Source of the DNA: Pseudomonadota bacterium
GTDB lineage: Bacteria > Pseudomonadota > Gammaproteobacteria > Acidiferrobacterales > Acidiferrobacteraceae
Direction: 5' to 3'
Length of the DNA: 35,235 nucleotides
NCBI GenBank assembly: GCA_021816425.1
Contig: JAKAXT010000010.1
Location: forward strand, 1-35,235
The notes beneath the pieces were generated by a model. The model was not told the DNA's origin and searched no databases. It saw only the letters and a program-made list of their open reading frames with translations. Positions 28,176 through 35,235 of the stretch are shown in pieces; position 1 is the first letter of the stretch, and each line of letters begins with the position of its first letter. A program made the translations under genes and the position numbers.

Positions 28176-28252
28176 GGGCCTGTAGCTCAGTCGGTTAGAG
28201 CAGGGGACTCATAATCCTCTGGTCGAAGGTTCGAGTCCTTCCGGGCCCACCA
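28176..28252 (+). tRNA. tRNA with CAT anticodon, probably tRNA-Ile2 (lysidine)
   Basis: Full cloverleaf: GGGCCTG/CGGGCCC acceptor, GCTC/GAGC D stem, GGGGA-CTCATAA-TCCTC anticodon arm, GAAGG-TTCGAGT-CCTTC T arm, encoded CCA; C4:G69 and C5:G68 pairs. Confidence 0.93.
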
Positions 28253-34192: not shown

Positions 34193-34663
34193 TCCCTATA
34201 CCCGTCCTGAATCCTCGAATCATGATGCCAAAGACGCGCGTCCGATGCGAGAAGGAGATGGCCTGTCCGAGACCGGCCGGGGAGGACCGCACCGTATGCG
34301 GAGGGGGCGAGACCTGGCGCGTGGACCACGTTGCAGGCGCGAGCCACCCTCCGGGCGGCTTGGGGCGGGGTGACGCAAGGCGCGTGCGCGTCACGCGCGA
34401 CGGGTGTCGTTTTGATACCGGGCGGGTGGCCTTGGCGGCTCGTTCCCGGGCCGCGCGCCGCCAATCCGGTGGCCACCGCCATAACGCGCGCTTATGGGTC
34501 CCGGTTTTGAAAATTCGCCGATAGGTTCTCGTGTTTCCGTGTCGCGGGCTTTGGGGCGCGATGGCCCGTGTGGCGTTAAGCCCATGTTTCCTTAAATCTA
34601 TTGAAGGGCCAAAGCTTTTCTATGATCGCCGTTTTTCCTGGGTCCGAGCGTCCGGCTGAGGGC

Positions 34664-34692
34664 GGGAATGGGCCCGGTGGGTTGGGGGCGGG
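34664..34692 (+). other. G-quadruplex-compatible motif
   Basis: GGG-AAT-GGG-CCCGGT-GGG-TT-GGGGG-C-GGG. Confidence 0.5.
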
Positions 34693-34704
34693 CCCATCGG
34701 GGTC

Positions 34705-34737
34705 TTGACATAGCATTCTTTTATGAGTCATAACTCA
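34705..34737 (+). promoter_or_regulatory. Candidate promoter/operator: TTGACA and two interlocked palindromes
   Basis: TTGACA 34705-34710; TTATGAGTCATAA 34721-34733; TGAGT-CATA-ACTCA 34724-34737; possible -10 CATAAC 34729-34734. Confidence 0.55.
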
Positions 34738-34765
34738 CCATTAGGCGCTTTGATAGGCCTCATAA

Positions 34766-34790
34766 ATATGCATTATGCACTTATGCATAT
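34766..34790. promoter_or_regulatory. Inverted repeat ATATGCAT-N9-ATGCATAT with three ATGCA copies
   Basis: Arms 34766-34773 and 34783-34790; ATGCA at 34768, 34775 and 34783. Confidence 0.55.
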
Positions 34791-34818
34791 AAGAATTTAT
34801 TTATAAGGCAACGGCGCA

Positions 34819-34944
34819 CGGCCACGGGGGCCGGCGACGGTTTCACGAAGGCAGGACGGAGATTTCTGGAAATGGCGATTGCCCGACGCGGGCGGGGCGC
34901 AAAGGCCCAGGCCCCGTCGGGCCGTTCCGCTAAGACCGGTCTTA
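34819..34944 (+). other. GC-rich structured leader candidate
   Basis: Hairpins CGGCC-ACGGG-GGCCG, GCCCG-ACG-CGGGC, GGCCC-CGTC-GGGCC, then perfect palindrome TAAGACCGGTCTTA, all before the ATG at 34991. Confidence 0.45.
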
Positions 34945-34990
34945 TCTCGTGTCTGCAAGGATCACTGTGTTCGAGGAGGGGTCGGTACGC

Positions 34991-35235
34991 ATGAGATGGG
35001 CATCTAAGGCGTTCGGAGTGGGTTTGGGGCTACTTGCGGTCACGGCTGTCGCCTATGCCGCGAACCCGGCCAAGACGCAGCCAGACCATAAGTCCGGGGT
35101 GGTGCGCAAGGCCGCCGTGACGAAATCCAAGGCCGGCAAGGCCGCCCCCAAGGCCAAGGCCGTCAAGGCCAAGGCCCCGGTCCTGACCGGGCGGCGGCCG
35201 CCGCTCGTGGCCGTGGGCATGAAGGCCCCGGCGCT
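34991..35235 (+). CDS. Secreted Lys/Ala-rich protein, truncated by window end
   Basis: MRWASKAFGVGLGLLAVTAVAYAANPAKTQPDHKSGVVRKAAVTKSKAGKAAPKAKAVKAKAPVLTGRRPP...; signal peptide; GAGGAGG upstream; open to the window edge. Confidence 0.75.
   Translation, partial: MRWASKAFGVGLGLLAVTAVAYAANPAKTQPDHKSGVVRKAAVTKSKAGKAAPKAKAVKAKAPVLTGRRPPLVAVGMKAPA

Follow-up and report, generated by a model that had tools for sequence, protein, structure and literature searches.

Background

In the published model of iron oxidisers, the bc1 complex works uphill when iron is the electron donor and in the forward direction when it is sulfur. Higher transcription on Fe(II) than on sulfur is one of the marks of a petI-type operon. 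The petI operon of Acidithiobacillus ferrooxidans has the order cycA1-sdrA1-petA1-petB1-petC1 (PMC2754497). Its promoter is regulated, and both Fur and RegA have been reported at it; no binding motif was derivable for RegA (PMC5506826).

The locus described here lies at the end of a 35,235-nt stretch of DNA ('the window'), which is the entire contig C117 of a metagenome-assembled genome (MAG) in 160 contigs. It is like A. ferrooxidans petI in the gene content and order seen in congeners, with the cytochrome c4 gene first, and its promoter is partly similar. It is unlike petI in that the host genus has the operon duplicated, with near-identical coding parts, and in that its promoter block carries a CATAA/TTATG array and has no match to the Fur consensus. 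The accessible parts of the A. ferrooxidans papers do not mention the array for petI, and the operator motif and the two-promoter arrangement are absent from what they report on petI and petII (PMC5506826, PMC2754497), which is no proof of novelty. Like the host genus, A. ferrooxidans has in one cell a second bc1 operon with a cytochrome c4 and an SDR gene, petII; this is described as sulfur-induced and includes Hip (PMC2754497), whereas the second copy of the host is a near-identical twin, apparently kept so by gene conversion. The sequence-only reading had proposed an undescribed regulatory system at this place. Support for this is weak, because petI is well known and its promoter is regulated in A. 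ferrooxidans (PMC5506826): the operator motif is new with respect to that literature, and the target operon belongs to a familiar type.

Genomes compared and the host

The window's genome was compared with 13 congeners (14 genomes of the genus). A locus of the window type is present in seven of them, namely a close group of four (the window's genome, G011, G006 and G003) and three distant congeners (G002, G005 and G008). Rusticyanin-like matches were found in 13 of the 14 genomes, nine of them, the window's own included, above the family cut-off. Together with the petI-type operon, these matches indicate that the host is probably an acidophilic iron oxidiser; the genus is probably Acidiferrobacter or a close relative, a name that we infer. 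Contigs C12 and C113 were rejected as the genome's own copies, being 100% and 99.9% identical to G011 contigs over the common stretch (loci L005 and L036). They probably represent contamination or strain mixing, that is, a bin mixed with a second species or strain. The sole Rfam match across the whole window is a tRNA (28176-28249).

A probable petI-type operon in two copies

The features at the gene and at the contig end are as follows.

34973..34981, + strand: Shine-Dalgarno region GAGGAGGGG, from sequence and conservation
34991..35235, + strand: probable cycA1-type diheme cytochrome c4 gene, of which the first 81 codons lie before the end of the contig; homologous to full-length congener genes with two CxxCH
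35109..35235, + strand: 127-base stretch identical to the end of contig C102; the 128th base differs

The reading frame from ATG 34991 encodes a signal-type N-terminus and then a Lys/Ala-rich linker, and runs into the contig end before any heme motif. Full-length orthologues in congeners contain two CxxCH motifs and match Pfam Cytochrom_C. By homology, the truncated gene most probably encodes the N-terminal part of a cycA1-type diheme cytochrome c4. An earlier description as a truncated gene for a secreted Lys/Ala-rich protein was right about the gene and its truncation, and is superseded as to the product. The order cycA-sdrA-petA-petB-petC was found in G006, G008 (both copies), G004, G013 and other congeners, the products being cytochrome c4, a short-chain dehydrogenase, the Rieske protein, cytochrome b and cytochrome c1. 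Read from these congeners, the window gene, whose own copy is cut at 35235, would be the first of a petI-type bc1 operon.

The window ends at 35235 because its last 127 bases match contig C102, which holds the second cycA gene of the genome, adjoining rsmI. Exact sharing of 127 bases at contig ends was also found in G011, G003 and G002 (four MAGs with the window), and we take it for an assembler k-mer overlap at a repeat. Two petI operons each are present in the better assembled G008 and G005. The G008 pair shows 99.9% identity over cycA-sdrA and petB-petC and 92% over petA; between G008 and G005 the difference is about 7%. Identity within a genome is thus higher than between species, which indicates concerted evolution, most simply by gene conversion; where it could be checked, the petI copies are near-identical within a genome. 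The contrast between petA and its flanks gives this evolution a mosaic character, with visible tract borders (L145 and L146 in G008, L147 and L148 in G005). In G005, a single-contig genome, internal duplications break the cycA frames of both copies (L147, L148), which may be an assembly fault.

The upstream regions of the two copies are unrelated, and each is conserved separately. The rsmI-side copy heads the same operon and has a promoter of its own, marked by the strongly conserved upstream element TATTAGTATTTAATTGATAWWTGTCA and, after it, CTTGAG (L029 region; L030, L032, L033, L035, L002). In the two species examined, no CATAA or TTATG half-site was found within 330 bp upstream of it. With near-identical petI operons lying behind unrelated, separately conserved promoters, the genus makes the relation of bc1 supply to electron donor testable: one promoter can be set directly against the other, and the candidate TTATG operator could serve as bait to find its regulator.

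A conserved block within the intergenic gap

The gap extends over 798 nt, from the start of a family-5 solute-binding protein gene (34192, minus strand) to the ATG at 34991 on the + strand. This agrees with the initial account of a gap of roughly 800 nt between these genes, free of a credible coding sequence. Most of its sequence motifs were also present as first listed: TTGACA (34705-34710), the palindrome TTATGAGTCATAA (34721-34733), an ATGCA triplet (34768-34787) and a 14-bp palindrome, TAAGACCGGTCTTA (34931-34944). Two parts of the gap are considered below.

34693..34804, + strand: conserved AT-rich block, a probable promoter-operator; each 20-bp bin is 55 to 95% invariant in four species, and the right part is also present in the three distant congeners
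34805..34990, + strand: leader, with conserved flanks and a variable GC-rich middle, which folds; 67% invariant in four species

Between 34664 and 34990, five hairpin-type inverted repeats (arms of 6) were counted, compared to 0.8 in dinucleotide shuffles (P = 0.004). The excess is due to the AT-rich part, where odd palindromes of at least 11 are also in excess (P = 0.008); in the GC-rich leader alone, inverted repeats are at chance (P = 0.38). The same count is reached by 6.5% of 327-bp tiles across the window. The proposal that this gap is much denser in such elements than any other gap is therefore not confirmed by the count, which compares tiles and not every gap.

The four close genomes could be aligned along the gap, and the three distant ones convincingly only over part of the AT-rich block and around the start codon. 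Invariance among the close four was 81% over 34705-34803, compared to 67% for the leader and 48% for the whole gap; most 20-bp bins in 34253-34692 were 0 to 45% invariant. Conservation of the dyads in relatives, the lack of which had been named at the outset as refuting, divided the motifs. The AT-rich dyads are conserved and pass this test. The GC hairpins, the G-run (25 to 45% invariant) and the 14-bp palindrome (imperfect in all three close relatives) are not, and of the ATGCA triplet a single copy is left in G011, the unit kept being TTATG. Footprinting across seven genomes supports a strongly conserved regulatory region upstream of the gene. We take the region for a real, conserved and gene-specific promoter-operator, well marked but of a known, ordinary kind among bacterial promoter regions.

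Candidate promoters and half-sites

Within and beyond the block, the following elements were identified.

34705..34734, + strand: candidate promoter P1, TTGACA-N18-CATAAC (CATAAA in three close relatives); conserved in four species, absent from the distant three
34788..34804, + strand: candidate P2 -10 box TATAAG (TAGAAT in distant species), then AATTTATTTAT; AATTTATTTAT is invariant in seven genomes
34721..34733, no strand: dyad TTATG-N3-CATAA, overlapping the P1 -10 box; conserved in four species
34761..34785, + strand: candidate proximal operator CATAA-N7-TTATG-N3-TTATG; [C/G]ATAA-N7-TTATG-N3-TTATG in all seven genomes with the locus
34480..34496, no strand: distal dyad CATAA-N7-TTATG, a likely operator on the ABC-transporter side; half-sites kept in the close four

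Relative to sigma-70, P1 matches the -35 hexamer at 6 of 6 positions and the -10 hexamer at 4 of 6, with N18 between them. A strict sigma-70 scan, with -35 and -10 boxes 16 to 18 bp apart, returned no canonical pair, and P2 has no canonical -35 box at 16 to 18 bp. The petI promoter printed for A. ferrooxidans (PMC5506826) can be read as containing TTGACC-N18-CATATA, spaced like P1; this reading is ours, made independently of the boxes marked by the authors. Similarity of the block to that promoter exceeds the similarity of shuffled sequences (P = 0.003 in the window, 0.013 to 0.15 in its relatives), which is a hint only, given that the sequences compared are related to one another. Three further promoters in that paper, rus, cta and reg, were compared with the block as well, and all scored at shuffle level.

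TTATG or CATAA half-sites lie at 34721, 34729, 34761, 34773 and 34781, that is, five in 65 bases compared to 0.77 expected, a number reached in none of 1,000 dinucleotide shuffles. The distal dyad is kept although its surroundings are poorly conserved; it is absent from the distant three, where the upstream sequence is different. A search of all 14 genomes gave 19 places with CATAA-N7-TTATG, including one on C113, the probable contaminant, compared to three for a reversed control. There are only two copies in the window's species, with C113 set aside, and only two in G003, all of them in the gap; G011 and G006 have three each, two of them in the gap. The composite TTATGNNNTTATGNATANAA has one exact match per genome in the seven genomes, always at the window-type locus, and its inexact matches show no excess over the control.

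Most likely, a single regulator uses these half-sites as an array of operators at the petI promoter. The best explanation of the region as a whole, which we hold to be fairly probable, is a promoter-operator of one of two petI-type operon copies, with TTATG sites bound by a regulator. One dimeric DNA-binding protein would recognise the TTATG half-sites and, when bound at 34721-34785, would block or recruit RNA polymerase, as proposed from the overlap or direct contact of the sites with both candidate -10 boxes. Since the half-sites coincide with or adjoin the place where the polymerase would bind, they are read most simply as the target of a repressor or of an activator in close contact with it. 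Through the distal dyad, the same protein could also influence the divergently oriented ABC-transporter side. The duplication would place one bc1 complex under two promoters with different regulation, and gene conversion would hold the coding parts alike. If A. ferrooxidans petI is a guide, the signal is presumably the redox state or which of iron and sulfur is in use.

The two dyads lie about 283 bp apart (281, 284, 284 and 283 bp in the four species), which is near 27 helical turns. A dedicated, undescribed TTATG regulator might loop the gap through these two in-phase dyads, so that a single switch would serve the divergent ABC transporter as well as this copy of the bc1 operon, a scheme that we regard as rather doubtful. 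If it held, a bc1 operon evolving in concert with its twin would gain a separate expression programme.

Alternative explanations

The AT-rich block might be no more than a strong promoter or UP-element-like DNA, the half-sites arising from base composition and no dedicated regulator being involved. AT-rich promoter DNA is common in GC-rich genomes, and candidate -35 and -10 elements do exist here. Dinucleotide shuffles, however, fail to reproduce the half-sites; their spacing is fixed in seven genomes while neighbouring bases vary, and the distal copy sits in poorly conserved, GC-rich DNA. We therefore judge this explanation unlikely. It is still less probable that the motif is a known Fur or RegA site, hence not new, as might be supposed from the report of both proteins at the A. 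ferrooxidans petI promoter (PMC5506826): the best match of the block to the 19-bp Fur consensus is 11 of 19, no better than shuffles (P = 0.6 for the window, at least 0.94 in the distant three). RegA, which has no defined motif in A. ferrooxidans (PMC5506826), may still bind here. On the whole, we consider such an identity distinctly improbable.

Control could also lie in the RNA, as the initial suggestion of a leader element implied. The leader of about 190 nt would fold and govern translation or termination of the operon, its conserved flanks pairing around a variable arm. Folding is more stable than in shuffles in two of the four leaders (z = -2.55 in the window and -2.26 in a relative), a common long-range fold exists, and three pairs of the consensus structure are changed on both sides, one of them appearing as A-U, G-U and G-C. 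Against this, the other two leaders give z = -1.52 and +0.36, and 37 of 500 shuffles reach the same covariation. Rfam gives no match in the region, whether at the gathering threshold or with E values allowed up to 1, no terminator-like site was found in a scan of the region, and the leaders of the three distant genomes cannot be aligned with it. The suggestion thus retains weak support from folding and covariation and none from Rfam, and RNA control is quite unlikely. A small ORF or leader peptide was also considered and rejected: its ATG at 34872 is lost in G006, hence no leader peptide is conserved.

Other occurrences of the motifs

When TTATGNGTCATAA was tried as a regulon motif, its matches were scattered, mostly with one mismatch, and gave no clear target set; it was rejected. 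The three distant congeners have one exact CATAA-N7-TTATG in common, upstream of a gene for a DoxX and pyridine-nucleotide-disulphide reductase (NDH-2-like) protein (L150, L158 and L163, position 1501). The gene is likely respiratory, and the regulator may have its second target here, though this is a single case.
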